Source: an uncultured Persicobacter sp.
GTDB taxonomy: Bacteria; Bacteroidota; Bacteroidia; Cytophagales; Cyclobacteriaceae
Assembly: GCA_947498325.1 (NCBI GenBank)
Contig: CANMKE010000005.1
Location: forward strand, 186,001-250,000
Direction: 5' to 3'
DNA length: 64,000 nt
Numbering within the stretch: the stretch's first letter is position 1; every line of letters starts with the position of its first letter. Under the pieces are notes generated by a model. It did not search any database, had not been told where the DNA came from, and worked only from the letters and a program-made list of their open reading frames with translations. Made by a program: the position numbers and the translations under genes. Of the stretch, positions 3,913-52,492 are shown piece after piece.

Positions 3913-4791
3913 CTATTCATTAAACTTCCGAATCGATATTCCTGAGACTTTTGGAAAATCTCTGCCCAAGGTCGAAAGGTAAAAACGGATATTCAACTGA
4001 CCATCCACTACAGTAGTTTGGTACTCTTTATTAATTGCAAAGAATTTACCTGTTCCTGTAGAATTTAAAGCATTGGCCTCTTTCCAAATATCCAAAGCTT
4101 CCTCTACCGTTTGCCCCTCAATATCAATATGGAATCGTCGGAAAGCGCCACCATCCCAACGGTTTTCAGAAAAATGCAACTCGACAATGTATTTTCCATT
4201 TTCAACATCAAAATCATAACTGAACTCTTCTCCATATCGCTCAGTAACAAAAATCTCCCGCTGCGGGGTGTTCATGATTTCCTGATCTTCAAACCAAGTA
4301 TGAACGATACCATCTGTAAAATACTTATCCGCTTCAAACGTTTCACCGAAATCATTGGTGAAAGATTCTTTGCCGCCCGCATTAACACTTAGTATCGGTT
4401 CCCCTTCAGCCAAATTCAACAAATGCCAATTGACAATGCTCGAATTGGCATTGGTGGTATCATCATCGGCCACCACTTTAATATTTGAAAAGACAGAATA
4501 CAAGCGACTCGGCAATTCAGCAAAGTTACCTGTAATTTCCCCCGTTTTTGAATTGATGCTCAATCCCGCAGGCAAAGTATCCGCTGACCAGGTCACCCGA
4601 TCGGTTTCGTTTTGTAAACCAAGATCCATTTTAAATTCATCACCAGGTTCAACTTTTAAAACTTGATCTGCCGCATTCGTGATCTGCAACTGAGGCACAG
4701 GCTGCACGTTTTCATCGTCGCTTGAACAGGCGCCTAGGAATAATGCCCCGAGGGCCACTGTGGTCAAAACTTTCCCAATTTTCATTTTCAT
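3913..4791 (-). CDS. Lipoprotein with Ig-like and malectin domains
   Basis: Surface or periplasmic lipoprotein of 292 residues; lipobox FLGAC gives Cys22. Residues about 35-110 resemble a putative Ig domain (He_PIG type: WSADTLPAGLSINSKTGEITG), and about 130-290 a malectin-like beta-sandwich (SVNAGG, then YIVELHFSE with an aromatic/Arg-rich strand and a final RFYLSTLG). Malectin domains bind glycans or decorate polysaccharide-acting proteins, so carbohydrate binding is likely, but no catalytic domain is present. It is flanked by a terminator and appears to be a single-gene unit. Translation could begin at Met1 or Met3. Confidence 0.85.
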   Translation of the reverse strand: MKMKIGKVLTTVALGALFLGACSSDDENVQPVPQLQITNAADQVLKVEPGDEFKMDLGLQNETDRVTWSADTLPAGLSINSKTGEITGNFAELPSRLYSVFSNIKVVADDDTTNANSSIVNWHLLNLAEGEPILSVNAGGKESFTNDFGETFEADKYFTDGIVHTWFEDQEIMNTPQREIFVTERYGEEFSYDFDVENGKYIVELHFSENRWDGGAFRRFHIDIEGQTVEEALDIWKEANALNSTGTGKFFAINKEYQTTVVDGQLNIRFYLSTLGRDFPKVSGISIRKFNE

Positions 4792-4931
4792 ATATTAGAT
4801 GTGAGTCAATACTAAATAGAGAATGAAAATAGGATCGAAAGGTTATCCTTTACATCATAAGGTGGGCTGAATAAGTACTTTTTAGGATCAATTTATAGGA
4901 TTTAAATACATTAAAGGCTGTCGAAAAATAG

Positions 4932-6614
4932 CTATTGCTGATGTGCTGCGTTATCAAATCGGCCATTGAATTGTTGCCCAATCAGCAAATTTTGATTAAT
5001 CTCAACGCTACCCTCAGCATTTGGCAACTTCAAAGAATGCCATTTTTTGGAAGCATCCAAAATCATGGATTCCCCCCCAATGGATAAAGCAATCGGCATA
5101 TTGAAATCTGCGACACAGTTCGTCCAGCGGTAATTTAAATACCCATCCTGAATTTCATACTCCATCACAGGAATTTGCGTGGTACGCAGATACTGATCAA
5201 AAAAGGGCTTTAATTCCAATCCCGTTTTGGTGGCCATATATCCTTCTATTTGCGCTGAGCTCACCGTTTGGTGATAAAATGTTTCGTTCAACCCGCGAAG
5301 CATCGATCGCCAAAGCGCATCATCATTCACAATTTGCCTAAGCGTATGCAGCATACATGCGCCTTTCACATACATATCGCCAGATCCTTCCTCATTGACA
5401 CCATAATGCCCAATCACAGGACGATCGTTTAAAATTCTGCTTCTTATCCCGCGCATGTACTCATCGCAGGCTTCCTTGCCTTCATAATATTCTACATACA
5501 GCGCTTCGGAATAGGTAGTAAACCCTTCATGAATCCACATATCAGCAACATCTTTATTGGTGATATTATTGGCGAACCACTCATGCCCTGCCTCGTGCAC
5601 AATGATAAAATCAAAAGTTTGCCCCCAACCCGTTCCAGACAAATCAGTGCCTTTGTAACCATTCTTAAAGCCATTACCATAAGTAACTGAACTTTGGTGT
5701 TCCATCCCGAGATAAGGTGTTTGAACGAGCTTGAATCCGTCCTCATAAAAAGGATAAGGCCCAAACCAGTGCTCCAAAGCCTTGAGCATTTTAGGCACTT
5801 GCTGAAACTGTCTTTTGGCTTTTTGGAGGTCTGACTTCAGCACGTAATACGAACAATGCAAAGGTCCTTTTTCCCCATCATAGATTTCATCAAAAGAAGC
5901 GTAATCTGCCACATTGATATTCACCCCATAATTGTTGATCGGGTTCTTAACCTGCCAGTGATAAGTTATGGTCTTTGTCTTTCGATTTTTATTCACCTCA
6001 ATCAATTGTCCATTCGAAACATCCATTAAACCGCTTGGTACAGTAATAGAAATATCCATACTGTCTACTTCATCGGCAGGGAAATCCTTACAGGGCCACC
6101 ATAAACTTGCCCCTTCCCCCTGGCAGGCAGAGGCAATAAAATGTTTTGGTTTTTTTTGACTGACAGAATCCTTGCTCCACACGAAACCACCATCCCAGGG
6201 CGGGTTTTTCGCTACGGGTGGTTGCCCCTCAAAGAAAAGGGAAAGCTGCCCTTGCTCGCCTGCTTTCATCACTTTAGGCAACTGTACCATATAAGCATTA
6301 CCTATCGCGGTAACCTTCAGATTATCGCCATGCTGCACCACACGGGTCAGTTGCATGGGGGCTTGTAAATCGATTTGAAGCGTTTGTCCTTCTTTCAGGG
6401 CCACGAACTTCATAATATTCTCCCCAGAAATTGATTGCTGATCAGGAAACACCCGAACATTGAGGTGATAATAAACTAAATCCCACCATGCACGATTGGG
6501 ACCATTGGCACCTCTGAGGGTATCTTGGCGGGTATATTGTTGAGCCTGAACAGGTTGGTGTACGCTAAAAAGTAAGGCCAAAAGTATCAGCCTGCAAAAC
6601 GGTTTAATCTTCAT
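4932..6614 (-). CDS. M1 family aminopeptidase, exported
   Basis: Zinc aminopeptidase of the gluzincin clan. The start at 6614 is chosen because it gives a clean signal peptide (MKIKPFCRL to VQAQ); an upstream in-frame ATG at 6647 would run into a terminator hairpin. The 560-residue protein has an N-terminal beta-sandwich, the substrate-binding GMEHQS motif (GAMEN equivalent) and HEAGH near residues 339-343, with the third zinc ligand in WIHEGF at exactly the M1 spacing (18 residues between HEXXH and Glu). It stops soon after the catalytic and small beta domains, so it lacks the C-terminal helical-repeat domain of larger M1 enzymes. Probably periplasmic. Confidence 0.93.
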   Translation of the reverse strand: MKIKPFCRLILLALLFSVHQPVQAQQYTRQDTLRGANGPNRAWWDLVYYHLNVRVFPDQQSISGENIMKFVALKEGQTLQIDLQAPMQLTRVVQHGDNLKVTAIGNAYMVQLPKVMKAGEQGQLSLFFEGQPPVAKNPPWDGGFVWSKDSVSQKKPKHFIASACQGEGASLWWPCKDFPADEVDSMDISITVPSGLMDVSNGQLIEVNKNRKTKTITYHWQVKNPINNYGVNINVADYASFDEIYDGEKGPLHCSYYVLKSDLQKAKRQFQQVPKMLKALEHWFGPYPFYEDGFKLVQTPYLGMEHQSSVTYGNGFKNGYKGTDLSGTGWGQTFDFIIVHEAGHEWFANNITNKDVADMWIHEGFTTYSEALYVEYYEGKEACDEYMRGIRSRILNDRPVIGHYGVNEEGSGDMYVKGACMLHTLRQIVNDDALWRSMLRGLNETFYHQTVSSAQIEGYMATKTGLELKPFFDQYLRTTQIPVMEYEIQDGYLNYRWTNCVADFNMPIALSIGGESMILDASKKWHSLKLPNAEGSVEINQNLLIGQQFNGRFDNAAHQQ

Positions 6615-6645
6615 ATGTGAAGATAAATCTATGCGGAATAAAAAC

Positions 6646-6677
6646 AAAAAAGGAGATGATCATCATCTCCTTTTTTT
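6646..6677 (-). terminator. Rho-independent terminator after nitroreductase
   Basis: Stem GGAGATGAT/ATCATCTCC with an A-run on one side and a T-run on the other. It sits 4 bases beyond the nitroreductase stop and before the M1 peptidase start. Confidence 0.85.
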
Positions 6678-6681
6678 ATCA

Positions 6682-7422
6682 TTATACAGTGCGAACCACC
6701 TCTTCAAAAGGCACCCGATGGCGTTCGCCCCAAATTCCTGAAGGTGTCCCTTTTCCACAGGCGATCACCATTGTAATTTCAGTACTTGAAGGTAGATTTA
6801 ACAACTTCTTGAGTCGCACACTATCAAATCCTCCCAATGGACAAGTATCATAACCTTGAGCAGTCATGGCGTACATAAAGGTCATGCTCGCCAATGAATT
6901 TGAGCCGTGGATGGTCGCCATAATATCTTGCTTGCCCAATTCACGAACCATTGGACGGAACAATCCTACCACAGTCGCCATTAATCTTTTGATGCCTCCA
7001 AGAACCCCCAGTGCATCATTTCGATAAACCTTAGGCATTAAATCTTTATAGTAAGATTTTACCTTAGCAAATTTATCAGAAGACTCCCCGTACTCATTTT
7101 TTAATTTTTCATAATTGAACTCAGAACGGGTTTTCCAATAATCAGGACGAGCAACAACCACCACAAATTCCGAAGCGGTAGAAGCAGCCGACTGCCCCAA
7201 ACATATAGGCACCATTGCTTTACGCTTATCGTCGCTTTTCACCCTGACAAACTCCCACATTTGCATATTCGAACTGTTAGGCGATTTCAATGCCGATGCC
7301 AATGCCGTAGCAACAATGTGCTCAGGCATCTGATGCTCGGTATCAAAAACCCGATTCGATCGGCGTGCTTCAATCAATTCCTCAAAAAGCGTCTGTGTTG
7401 TCATTTCTGCTTGATTATTCAT
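6682..7422 (-). CDS. Nitroreductase family protein
   Basis: FMN-dependent NAD(P)H oxidoreductase of about 246 residues from the chosen ATG at 7422 (an in-frame ATG at 7467 would add 15 unlikely residues). The FMN phosphate motif ARRSNRVF lies at about residues 17-24, the second conserved block SPNSSNMQMWEF at about 45-56, and the C-terminal block ACGKGTPSGIWGERHRVPFEEVV is typical of the family. A perfect inverted repeat lies in the gap before it (7488-7503). Such enzymes reduce quinones and nitroaromatics; the natural substrate is unknown. Confidence 0.9.
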   Translation of the reverse strand: MNNQAEMTTQTLFEELIEARRSNRVFDTEHQMPEHIVATALASALKSPNSSNMQMWEFVRVKSDDKRKAMVPICLGQSAASTASEFVVVVARPDYWKTRSEFNYEKLKNEYGESSDKFAKVKSYYKDLMPKVYRNDALGVLGGIKRLMATVVGLFRPMVRELGKQDIMATIHGSNSLASMTFMYAMTAQGYDTCPLGGFDSVRLKKLLNLPSSTEITMVIACGKGTPSGIWGERHRVPFEEVVRTV

Positions 7423-43801: not shown

Positions 43802-43825
43802 GTAGAGATGTTAATCTTAACATCA
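43802..43825 (+). repeat. Palindromic repeat, copy 1 (plus orientation)
   Basis: GATGTTAA-TC-TTAACATC preceded by GTAGA. It matches the reverse complement of the repeat at 46541-46564 at all but four of about 24 positions. Confidence 0.6.
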
Positions 43826-43950
43826 AACGGTACGGGCTTGTGTGTTTTTACACCACAGCCTACCCACCCTGTAAAGGCATAATTTATTATGTCTCACGTA
43901 TCGAAGTCGCACAATTCTTCGAAGCTAATACAAAAGGTTATTATAACAAC

Positions 43951-44020
43951 TGTACGGATACACCTATGTGTGTATCCAAACTGTACAAAAATTTACGATG
44001 ATTCGGGCAGACACATAGGT
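43951..44020. ncRNA. Candidate structured element with competing hairpins
   Basis: GGATACAC/GTGTATCC (43956-43977) forms a perfect 8-bp stem extended outside by TGTAC/GTACA around a bulge. ACCTATGTGT (43962-43971), in its loop and arm, is also perfectly complementary to ACACATAGGT at 44011-44020, so two folds compete. Identity is unknown. Confidence 0.35.
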
Positions 44021-44271
44021 CAGCCCATACAGCGACCAAAAAAAAATTCGTGGAAAAATATCAGATTATGAATGTCCAGCAATCCACACCCACATCGCAT
44101 TCCAACAAAATCCCCCCCCGCTCCAACAAAAAAATCCAAAAAACGCCACCCATTCAATAAAAACCACTATTTTTGGATCAAATAATAATTTTTTAAGAAT
44201 ACATAGAGAGGAGACGAGGGGCAGGCATTCTTAATAATTTTAACCTATTGATTAATATACTAACCGCCACT

Positions 44272-46122
44272 ATGCGCCCAACATCTACCTATTTCACCAA
44301 AGCAACGATGCTTGTTGCTGTCCTTGTGATGCTTCTTTCTGCCTGTAAAAAAGGCGATGAAATCTCCCCAGCCCAACAGCAGTTCAATACCGAAATGGAA
44401 ACCCTGCAGGCTATTTTCAAAAGTTATGGCGTTTCGGCAGACAAGGTAGATGCCCGCATGACCACCAAAGAAACCAATATCCAGTCCGTGGATTTCTCAG
44501 CTTTGGAATTGACGACTATGGATGAGCGTTTATACACCATCCGCATCCAAAAAACTATTGACTTGCGCAACAACCAACTCGACATGGAAGTGATCAATAC
44601 CGTGAAGACCAAATTCCCAAAGGTTGAGGTATTGGTTTCAGGGAACCCGCCCTACGAGCAGGATATCGAATTGGAGACCTTGGAGAAATTGGGCGTCAGT
44701 GCAGATTCTGAAAGAGTAGTGAAAAATGCTGAGGGTTTTGTGAGTGAGCTTGATTTGTCGGGGATGGATAAGGTGGAGTTGGATAGTGCGATTTTCGAAT
44801 TCCCTTATTTGACCAAGCTGAATTTAGCCAACAATGACCTTCAGTTTCATCATTTCCAAACACTAAAAAATAGCATAGACGGTATTGAATTGAATTTTGA
44901 AGGCAATCCGATCTATGAAATTTCCATGACTGAAATCAGCCGTTTTCAAGAGTACTTGGACTTCAATGAGGTGAAAGCCAATGCGGAAGAGGTATTGACT
45001 TTTTATACCAATGATAATTCGGTAAGTGATGAGGAATTACCTGAAGGAAGCTCCTTAGGTTATATTGCTACGATTGACCTTTCTGCGCAGAACATTGCTG
45101 ACCTTGCTTTACCAACGGAGGATTTTGTGGTCTTGAAAACTGATGTTTTGGAGATTGATTTAAGTAATTCGTCTTTTGGCTTAGATGCTATGATGGATGA
45201 AAAAAGGGTTGGGGCGATTTATCCAACAAATGTAGAGGGAAATGAAATTTTAGGAGCAGCAATTGAGGCGTATATTAAGGTTCAGGCTCCTCTGATGGAG
45301 GACTATGATAATTTGAAAGATGCTGGAGCTGATTATTATAAAACTGAATTTAAGAAATTACCTTATCCATTTTCAACATTAACACAACCTGATGCTTTTT
45401 CTTTTTTCTATGTAAGGACGGCATACAATAATGGAATCTTTGATGTGCAATTGAATCTGTTACAGAATTCAGTTAAAAATGTTATTCCGTGTAAATTTAT
45501 TGATCGAGCAATTATTGGTTTAGTTGAGCTTTACGCAAATGGAGAGCTAAATACTGATGAATACATTAACTTATTTAATCAACGAGGCACCCCACTTGAT
45601 ATTTCTATTCAGTGTTTTAAGAATGCGAAATTTAATAATGAGTTTAATAAGTTAGACACTGAAATATCATTTGGAAACCCTAATACTTTGGGACTTACAT
45701 TCGGTATAATGGTTGATACAGCAATAGTTTCGAATCAAGCTTTCAATGGAATTTCGTGCCCGTATTTTGGGTTGGGCATACGTGATGCATTAATTTTTAA
45801 AGATGATGTAATAAACATTAGTGTTTATGGAGAGACATTTATTCTTTCAGCAAGAGAGGTGTATATTGAAAATGATATTGAAAGACCAGAAATTCATTTT
45901 ATCGATGGAAATGGACAGTATTCTGAAAGTAAGAAGGCGAAAAGTGTAATAATCAATAATTTACACGAAGCATCAATGCCCGTTGATGTTTACATAGATT
46001 TAATTAATTTTCCAGCATTAGAAAAATTAGTTTTACAAACTAAGGGAAATATCTATTTGGATGAGGAGTTATTGAATAATATAGAGGAGGTTGAAATCAT
46101 ATCGAAAAATATAAACAAATAG
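44272..46122 (+). CDS. Large lipoprotein of mixed base composition
   Basis: A 616-residue lipoprotein; the ATG at 44272 gives the lipobox LLSAC (Cys25). Residues about 60-290 hold irregular leucine-rich-repeat-like turns (LDLSGMDKVELDS, LTKLNLANNDL, IDLSAQNIADL). The rest (from about residue 300) has no recognised domain. Third-position and overall G+C fall sharply near 45170: 60-base lines at 44521 and 44581 contain 26 and 25 G/C, those at 45481, 45661 and 45841 contain 19, 20 and 17. This suggests the 3' part has a different origin. The gene lies between inverted palindromic repeats. Confidence 0.8.
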   Translation: MRPTSTYFTKATMLVAVLVMLLSACKKGDEISPAQQQFNTEMETLQAIFKSYGVSADKVDARMTTKETNIQSVDFSALELTTMDERLYTIRIQKTIDLRNNQLDMEVINTVKTKFPKVEVLVSGNPPYEQDIELETLEKLGVSADSERVVKNAEGFVSELDLSGMDKVELDSAIFEFPYLTKLNLANNDLQFHHFQTLKNSIDGIELNFEGNPIYEISMTEISRFQEYLDFNEVKANAEEVLTFYTNDNSVSDEELPEGSSLGYIATIDLSAQNIADLALPTEDFVVLKTDVLEIDLSNSSFGLDAMMDEKRVGAIYPTNVEGNEILGAAIEAYIKVQAPLMEDYDNLKDAGADYYKTEFKKLPYPFSTLTQPDAFSFFYVRTAYNNGIFDVQLNLLQNSVKNVIPCKFIDRAIIGLVELYANGELNTDEYINLFNQRGTPLDISIQCFKNAKFNNEFNKLDTEISFGNPNTLGLTFGIMVDTAIVSNQAFNGISCPYFGLGIRDALIFKDDVINISVYGETFILSAREVYIENDIERPEIHFIDGNGQYSESKKAKSVIINNLHEASMPVDVYIDLINFPALEKLVLQTKGNIYLDEELLNNIEEVEIISKNINK

Positions 46123-46178
46123 CGATGAGGAGTATTTTATGATAATCTCCAAATCCATTTGAATTGAATTTATTTTTG

Positions 46179-46218
46179 AAAACTGGTCTTAGAAAAAATC
46201 TTAAGACCAGTTTTTTTT
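46179..46218 (+). terminator. Terminator after chimeric lipoprotein gene
   Basis: Stem ACTGGTCTTA/TAAGACCAGT with eight T, about 60 bases after the stop. Confidence 0.9.
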
Positions 46219-46325
46219 GGCTATTTTATTCCTTCCTCTCTTGCAGGTGTTTGGTCTTGTTTTCATTCGGAAAATTGAATCAGCATTGTGTTAACCACAG
46301 CTAAAGCAATGGCCTAACACAGTAA

Positions 46326-46568
46326 AACCTGCTGAAGCAGGTTGGCATTTACTTTCAATGAAATAATTTTGGTTAATTGAAGGCTGTAATTCCATCGAAG
46401 CACCAGCCCAACCCATTTTAATGGGTTTTTCTTTGATAAGCCAAGGCTTTATCCTTGGTTAAATTATGGTGGGTAAATAATGGATGGTCTTAGTTCGGAG
46501 ACTAAGGCCAGTCTGAAAAACGAGGGCTCATATTCCTGTTAGACGTTAAGAATAACGTCTCTACGGGG
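46326..46568. repeat. Cluster of five short palindromes
   Basis: In order: AACCTGCT-GA-AGCAGGTT (46326-46343), AACCCATT-TT-AATGGGTT (46410-46427), CCAAGG-6-CCTTGG (46441-46458), GGTCTTAGT-6-ACTAAGGCC (46486-46509, one wobble) and AGACGTTA-4-TAACGTCT (46541-46560) followed by CTACGGGGC. They are spaced 25-65 bases apart like REP clusters. The intervening DNA has no gene. Confidence 0.65.
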
Positions 46569-50840: not shown

Positions 50841-50880
50841 CGTACCTATCGGTACGGACGTTGCATGCAACGTCCCTACA
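50841..50880. repeat. GACGTT palindrome, copy A
   Basis: GGACGTTGCA/TGCAACGTCC is a perfect 20-base palindrome in GTAC...CTAC context, identical over 28 bases to the copy at 52451-52478. It is preceded by a smaller inverted repeat CGTACC/GGTACG. Confidence 0.75.
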
Positions 50881-52450: not shown

Positions 52451-52478
52451 TGTACGGACGTTGCATGCAACGTCCCTA
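52451..52478. repeat. GACGTT palindrome, copy B
   Basis: Same 28 bases as at 50852-50879, in the same orientation, 1.6 kb apart; the two flank the CoA-transferase gene. Confidence 0.75.
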
Positions 52479-52492
52479 CGATAATGTGATTA

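Follow-up and report, generated by a model that had tools for sequence, protein, structure and literature searches.

The gene at positions 44272-46122 of the window (the whole stretch of DNA analysed here, 64,000 nucleotides long) raises the question of whether a bacterial lipoprotein keeps one end constant while trading the other, and of what would carry out such an exchange. The initial annotation had proposed a fixed lipoprotein N-terminus joined to a foreign C-terminal part, with exchange between inverted copies of a palindrome. The comparison covered a pair of conspecific genomes and a single, more distant strain (Persicobacter sp. JZB09); the P. psychrovividus type strain (evidently the source of genome G426) and the window genome belong to the same species under the genome classification used.

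The gene encodes a protein of 616 amino acids and its frame remains open up to 46122. The lipoprotein signal is real, since the N-terminus contains MLLSAC25KKGDE, in which the lipobox LSAC25 is followed by KKGDE. In Bacteroidota the lipoprotein export signal (LES) has the form K-(D/E)2 (PMC6222051). Residues resembling it occur in the window gene (CKKGDE) and in the JZB09 copies (CQKDE), KKGDE being only a near-match to the published motif (PMC6222051). Judged from the lipobox and these LES-like residues, members of the family are probably outer-membrane, surface-exposed lipoproteins. No curated family covers the window protein in a profile search, and the leucine-rich repeat profile LRR_1 scored 14.5 bits, below its curated cut-off of 20.6, with weak matches to LRR structures in the PDB at residues ~155-200. 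AlphaFold models (mean pLDDT 40 for the full protein and 45 for the tail) did not have the confidence needed for a fold search. Neither the Rfam nor the tRNA scan gave a match in the 64-kb window.

Alignment of the family divides the locus into parts, all on the plus strand unless stated. A leader of ~150 bp 5′ of the ATG (44123-44271) is common to the copies, and identity to the other two copies in the genome begins at 44122/44123. It is followed by an N module (codons 1-175, 44272-44796), which carries the signal peptide, the lipobox Cys25 and KKGDE and is constant within each lineage; by an M module of type alpha (codons 176-323, 44797-45240) with weak LRR-like similarity at its start; and by a V module, the variable tail (codons 324-616 and the stop, 45241-46122), with 31% G+C. 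A semi-conserved 3′ end plus terminator (46009-46222) is 77% identical to the chromosomal copy and is a possible downstream homology anchor; within it lies an intrinsic terminator (46181-46218; -18.2 kcal/mol, z = -5.6) common to the stand-alone copies. The leader also contains a dyad, TTAAGAAT-N26-ATTCTTAA (44193-44234, not assigned to a strand), whose arms all four P. psychrovividus-type copies retain; in the plasmid copy the spacer differs and the arms are unchanged. Folded as RNA, the dyad was no better than shuffled sequences (z = +1.4) and formed no stable hairpin. It is possibly an operator.

The G+C content of the gene falls from ~45% (44350-44800) to ~31% (45400 onwards) while the frame stays open; a fall near 45170 had been noticed at the outset. 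The fall takes place in two steps, with 45.8% in codons 1-177, 38.4% in codons 178-315 and 31.1% from codon 316 to the end. In all six full-length copies, including the distant ones of JZB09, the N, M and V modules have 45-50%, 37-41% and 31-35% G+C, respectively. Because every family member has the step, it is no mark of a recent foreign join, and the composition step is an old, inherited property of the modules. A foreign origin of the tail, as read from G+C, was therefore rejected. The other half of the original proposal, an exchangeable tail behind a fixed lipoprotein N-terminus, was borne out by paralogs and by two syntenic loci.

Three full copies of the family are present in the genome: the window copy, a chromosomal copy between nif3 and lpxK (C1; G000:C1:236479-238317) and a plasmid copy (C34; G000:C34:39778-41631), whose contig also carries Rep3, ParA and ParB-like genes. 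At the DNA level the window copy is 94% and 91% identical to the other two over ~1.1 kb, a stretch that runs from 150 bp before the ATG through codon ~320. Beyond codon ~320, identity among the three copies drops abruptly to ~44-50%, and the other two tails share 25-36% of their amino acids with the window tail. All tails nevertheless form one diverged homologous family, with 10 residues invariant among six copies. No identical tail turned up that could mark a donor, the known V tails all being far apart. In this genome and in the two plasmid records, no V tail was found away from the end of a full gene, which argues against an archive of silent cassettes; antigenic variation from promoterless cassettes, of the vmp, vlsE or pilS type, was accordingly rejected. 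The dN/dS of V between the window and chromosomal copies (~0.4, with dS saturated) gave no support for positive selection. On the plasmid contig we also observed a gene for a ~1880-amino-acid secreted protein near the start and a second, cut copy at the contig end (C34 6944-12583 and 51547-53883; L040, L009, L042), which is either a genuine repeat or arises from the assembly of a circular plasmid.

The constant 5′ and variable 3′ parts anticipated in related strains were found in the conspecific type strain as well as in the paralogs. At the window locus both strains have the gene order DUF3024, NmrA, lipoprotein, scpA, mutA, with 96.8-98.2% DNA identity (dS 0.07-0.14) for the four genes on either side of the lipoprotein gene. 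Identity is 93.9% across the N module (dS 0.27) and falls to 48% from codon ~175, and dS across M and V is saturated. At the lpxK-nif3 locus of the same two strains, the neighbouring genes match at 99.7% and 97.7%; identity is 93-94% over N and M, 49% over the beginning of V and 71% over its last part, the tail being replaced from codon ~325. At both loci the lipoprotein gene varies between strains as a divergent island amid conserved syntenic neighbours. The variable tail of the type-strain chromosomal copy (L063 about 6130-7002, G426 C1) is broken by a transposase gene, which by its sequence reads as IS3-like.

Two further comparisons concern the joints between modules. Near-identical parts are joined to strongly divergent parts at sharp breakpoints, as in a mosaic gene, with gains in log likelihood of 192-283 for the main pairs versus at most about 10 in shuffles. 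Breakpoints fall at codon ~303-323 between alpha copies and at ~175 between alpha and beta copies in one lineage; a JZB09 breakpoint at codon ~169 is independent of the latter. The module phylogenies also conflict in the manner of a mosaic. N modules cluster by lineage and M modules by type, with alpha comprising the window, C1 and C34 copies and the JZB09 copies J1 and J2, and beta the type-strain pPP3 copy, which is syntenic with the window gene, and J3. Each module's topology was rejected for the other (AU p = 0.0003-0.003 for M, 0.0001 or less for N). Shared sites conflict too: when the window, C1, C34 and pPP3 copies are compared over the leader and codons 1-200, 12 sites join the window and type-strain copies and 11 join other pairs.

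One explanation for these patterns is vertical descent with a very fast-evolving tail, under relaxed or diversifying selection and with no exchange. Homology of the tails over their full length, with conserved ends, is consistent with it, and the low G+C and lack of a detectable domain fit loose constraint. However, synonymous change is saturated beside flanks of dS ~0.1 within one species, the breakpoints are sharp, and the AU tests place a beta M module across lineages while N groups by lineage. Breakpoint likelihoods and AU tests together indicate recombination and not only fast drift, and we regard descent without exchange as unlikely. The family is a modular mosaic, and its tail has been replaced at two syntenic loci within the species. 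The explanation that we favour as a whole, and hold with reasonable though not full confidence, is that a constant front is retained while the tail is exchanged by recombination among gene copies and strains, homologous recombination being the probable agent.

The palindromes that bracket the gene were the first suspected agents of this exchange. Aligned with the reverse complement of 46541-46564, the sequence at 43802-43825 agrees at exactly 20 of 24 positions, where the initial description gave about 20. Each palindrome is nearly self-complementary, so the claim of an inverted orientation, although the paired match stands, rests only on a short TAGAG/CTCTA asymmetry. The left palindrome (plus strand), a diverged copy, lies 447 bp before the ATG, and the right one (minus strand), a consensus-like copy, lies 419 bp past the stop. 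Within the window such matches exceed chance (4 sites versus 0.01 in shuffles). Mapped across the genome with up to 3 mismatches, they number 93 sites versus 46 for a reversed-pattern control, which gives an estimated ~50-90 dispersed copies, some of them paired ~74 bp apart, and makes the palindrome a dispersed rather than a locus-specific repeat. Dispersed, often paired palindromes in a genome that elsewhere encodes a Y1 (RAYT-like) transposase are the signature of REP/BIME elements, and we read both palindromes as ordinary scattered REP-like repeats, bystanders to the gene. A second palindrome type, GGGACGTTGCATGCAACGTCC, occurs in the window at 50856-50879 and 52456-52479, near an acetyl-CoA hydrolase gene.

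Inversion or cassette exchange driven by inverted palindromes, in the manner of a shufflon or a transposon, would account for the bracketing of the window gene and for a 187-bp intergenic block of the type strain that includes one palindrome and is duplicated on both sides of the lipoprotein gene (L018 5477-5663 and 8188-8374). The window strain has just the downstream copy of this block; in the type strain an extra 210-amino-acid ORF of no known family lies nearby (4759-5391, L018). In JZB09, repeats with a different palindrome, ACTGGTCGTAGTC...GACTACGACC (L024 13958-14504, 18770-19240 and 20980-21100), occur at the locus, one of them at the truncation of copy 2 and another at that of the SprB-like partner gene of copy 1. 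Against such a role, both outer palindromes occupy unchanged places in the type strain, whose tail differs, and the exchange boundaries lie inside the gene, at codons ~175 and ~325, with the palindromes 420-450 bp outside it. Moreover, the C1 and C34 copies are unbracketed, the nearest palindrome being 5.6 kb away for C1 and C34 having only another, GTTGCATGCAAC-type one ~10 kb away, and the Y1 transposase fits REP elements. Palindromes as the agents of tail exchange are thus extremely unlikely, and this part of the initial annotation was abandoned. In view of the 187-bp repeat and the JZB09 repeat at two truncations, palindromes may still take part in nearby rearrangements.

Beyond this genome, the family was found only in Persicobacter, on plasmid pPP3 of P. 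psychrovividus NBRC 101262 and on plasmid 1 of JZB09. Searches of up to 390 genomes each recovered it only in this species, save two marginal partial matches, and scans of genome-contig and viral-contig collections gave no relative. Another genome of the same genus has no family member and a 733-bp nif3-lpxK gap without a gene. JZB09 carries three tandem copies, one of them truncated, that share the leader and N module at 85-100% and diverge past codon ~169 or ~252. A JZB09 reverse transcriptase ~4 kb upstream, together with the variable 3′ end, could suggest a diversity-generating retroelement or other targeted hypermutation of the tail. However, a group II intron maturase domain is part of this reverse transcriptase, the variable stretch has many indels and at ~900 bp is no short A-biased repeat, and no template-like repeat was found around the window gene. 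We give hypermutation of this kind almost no weight.

The arrangement also recalls polymorphic toxin systems, in which a constant N-terminus is combined with a recombining C-terminus (PMC3482391). Here a constant trafficking end would deliver interchangeable C-terminal toxins or effectors encoded with immunity genes, and the constant N-terminus, swapped C-terminus and lipoprotein anchor are all compatible with such a system. In contrast to it, the tails are mutually homologous variants of one family with invariant residues and not unrelated domains. No toxin domain, toxin gene or PADLOC match was found, and no small immunity gene adjoins the window or C1 copies. A toxin function is very unlikely.

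The neighbourhood of some copies points elsewhere. Both on C34 and at JZB09 copy 3, what directly follows the lipoprotein gene is a gene for a ~3200-amino-acid SprB-repeat protein with a type IX secretion (T9SS) tail domain; JZB09 copy 1 is followed by only a 184-amino-acid fragment of an SprB-like gene. A PorP/SprF-family gene is located on the same replicon as the SprB-repeat gene in both C34 and JZB09, the C34 assignment being based on resemblance between its N-terminal sequence and the JZB09 protein. SprF-type proteins carry and anchor SprB adhesins (PMC12635249), and in both features the loci resemble SprB/SprF gliding-adhesin operons (PMC12635249). They differ in that two of the three copies in this genome stand alone, with no adjoining adhesin gene. 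We found no literature that describes a variable lipoprotein as part of SprB/SprF operons. The adjoining adhesin gene and the carrier gene on the replicon suggest that the lipoprotein probably acts with the adhesin. We infer that it likely works with, or like, an SprB-type adhesin, the tail serving as a variable contact face, which would probably be an exposed recognition or adhesion surface. A more tentative idea, which we consider rather doubtful, is that the tails form a recognition code. Each lipoprotein would be matched to a cognate partner, be it the SprB-type adhesin, kin cells or the surface of an alga, and tails would be traded among chromosomal, megaplasmid and plasmid copies to shift adhesion or self/non-self specificity.

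If the tail is exchanged by recombination, the shared leader and N module, and often the M module too, would provide homology on the left, and in stand-alone copies the semi-conserved last ~110 bp and the terminator would do so on the right. Homologous recombination, by gene conversion or import, would then act among the copies on the chromosome, megaplasmid and plasmid and those of other strains, so that the locus stays in place, the end that serves export and anchoring is kept constant, and the tail is swapped. In the vmp system of relapsing-fever Borrelia, homology sequences on the upstream and downstream sides anchor gene conversion (reviewed in PMC4534519). In both systems a lipoprotein gene combines constant homology on its 5′ side with an exchanged coding part, and downstream comes a homology block that contains an inverted repeat, in the present case the terminator. 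In contrast to vmp, neither a silent archive nor a single expression site was found here, and all full copies look expressible; the relatives are whole genes at other loci or in other strains, and no host immune system is known. Anchored gene conversion as in Borrelia may serve as the nearest working analogy. Intragenic recombination has also shaped the Opa proteins and pilin of Neisseria, which are mosaic adhesins and surface antigens. Like these, the family combines conserved with variable segments in a single gene and has mosaic alleles and conserved flanking genes, whereas it belongs to a free-living marine Bacteroidota, is an unrelated protein family and has a tail that makes up about half to 70% of the protein.

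Mosaic surface proteins are best known in host-associated pathogens. Here a free-living marine bacterium, under no known immune pressure, has a family with a constant front and a variable tail on its chromosome, megaplasmid and plasmid, and some of the copies are linked to giant type IX-secreted adhesins. If recognition by phage, of algal surfaces or among kin is the driver, this family would offer a simple system in which to test it.
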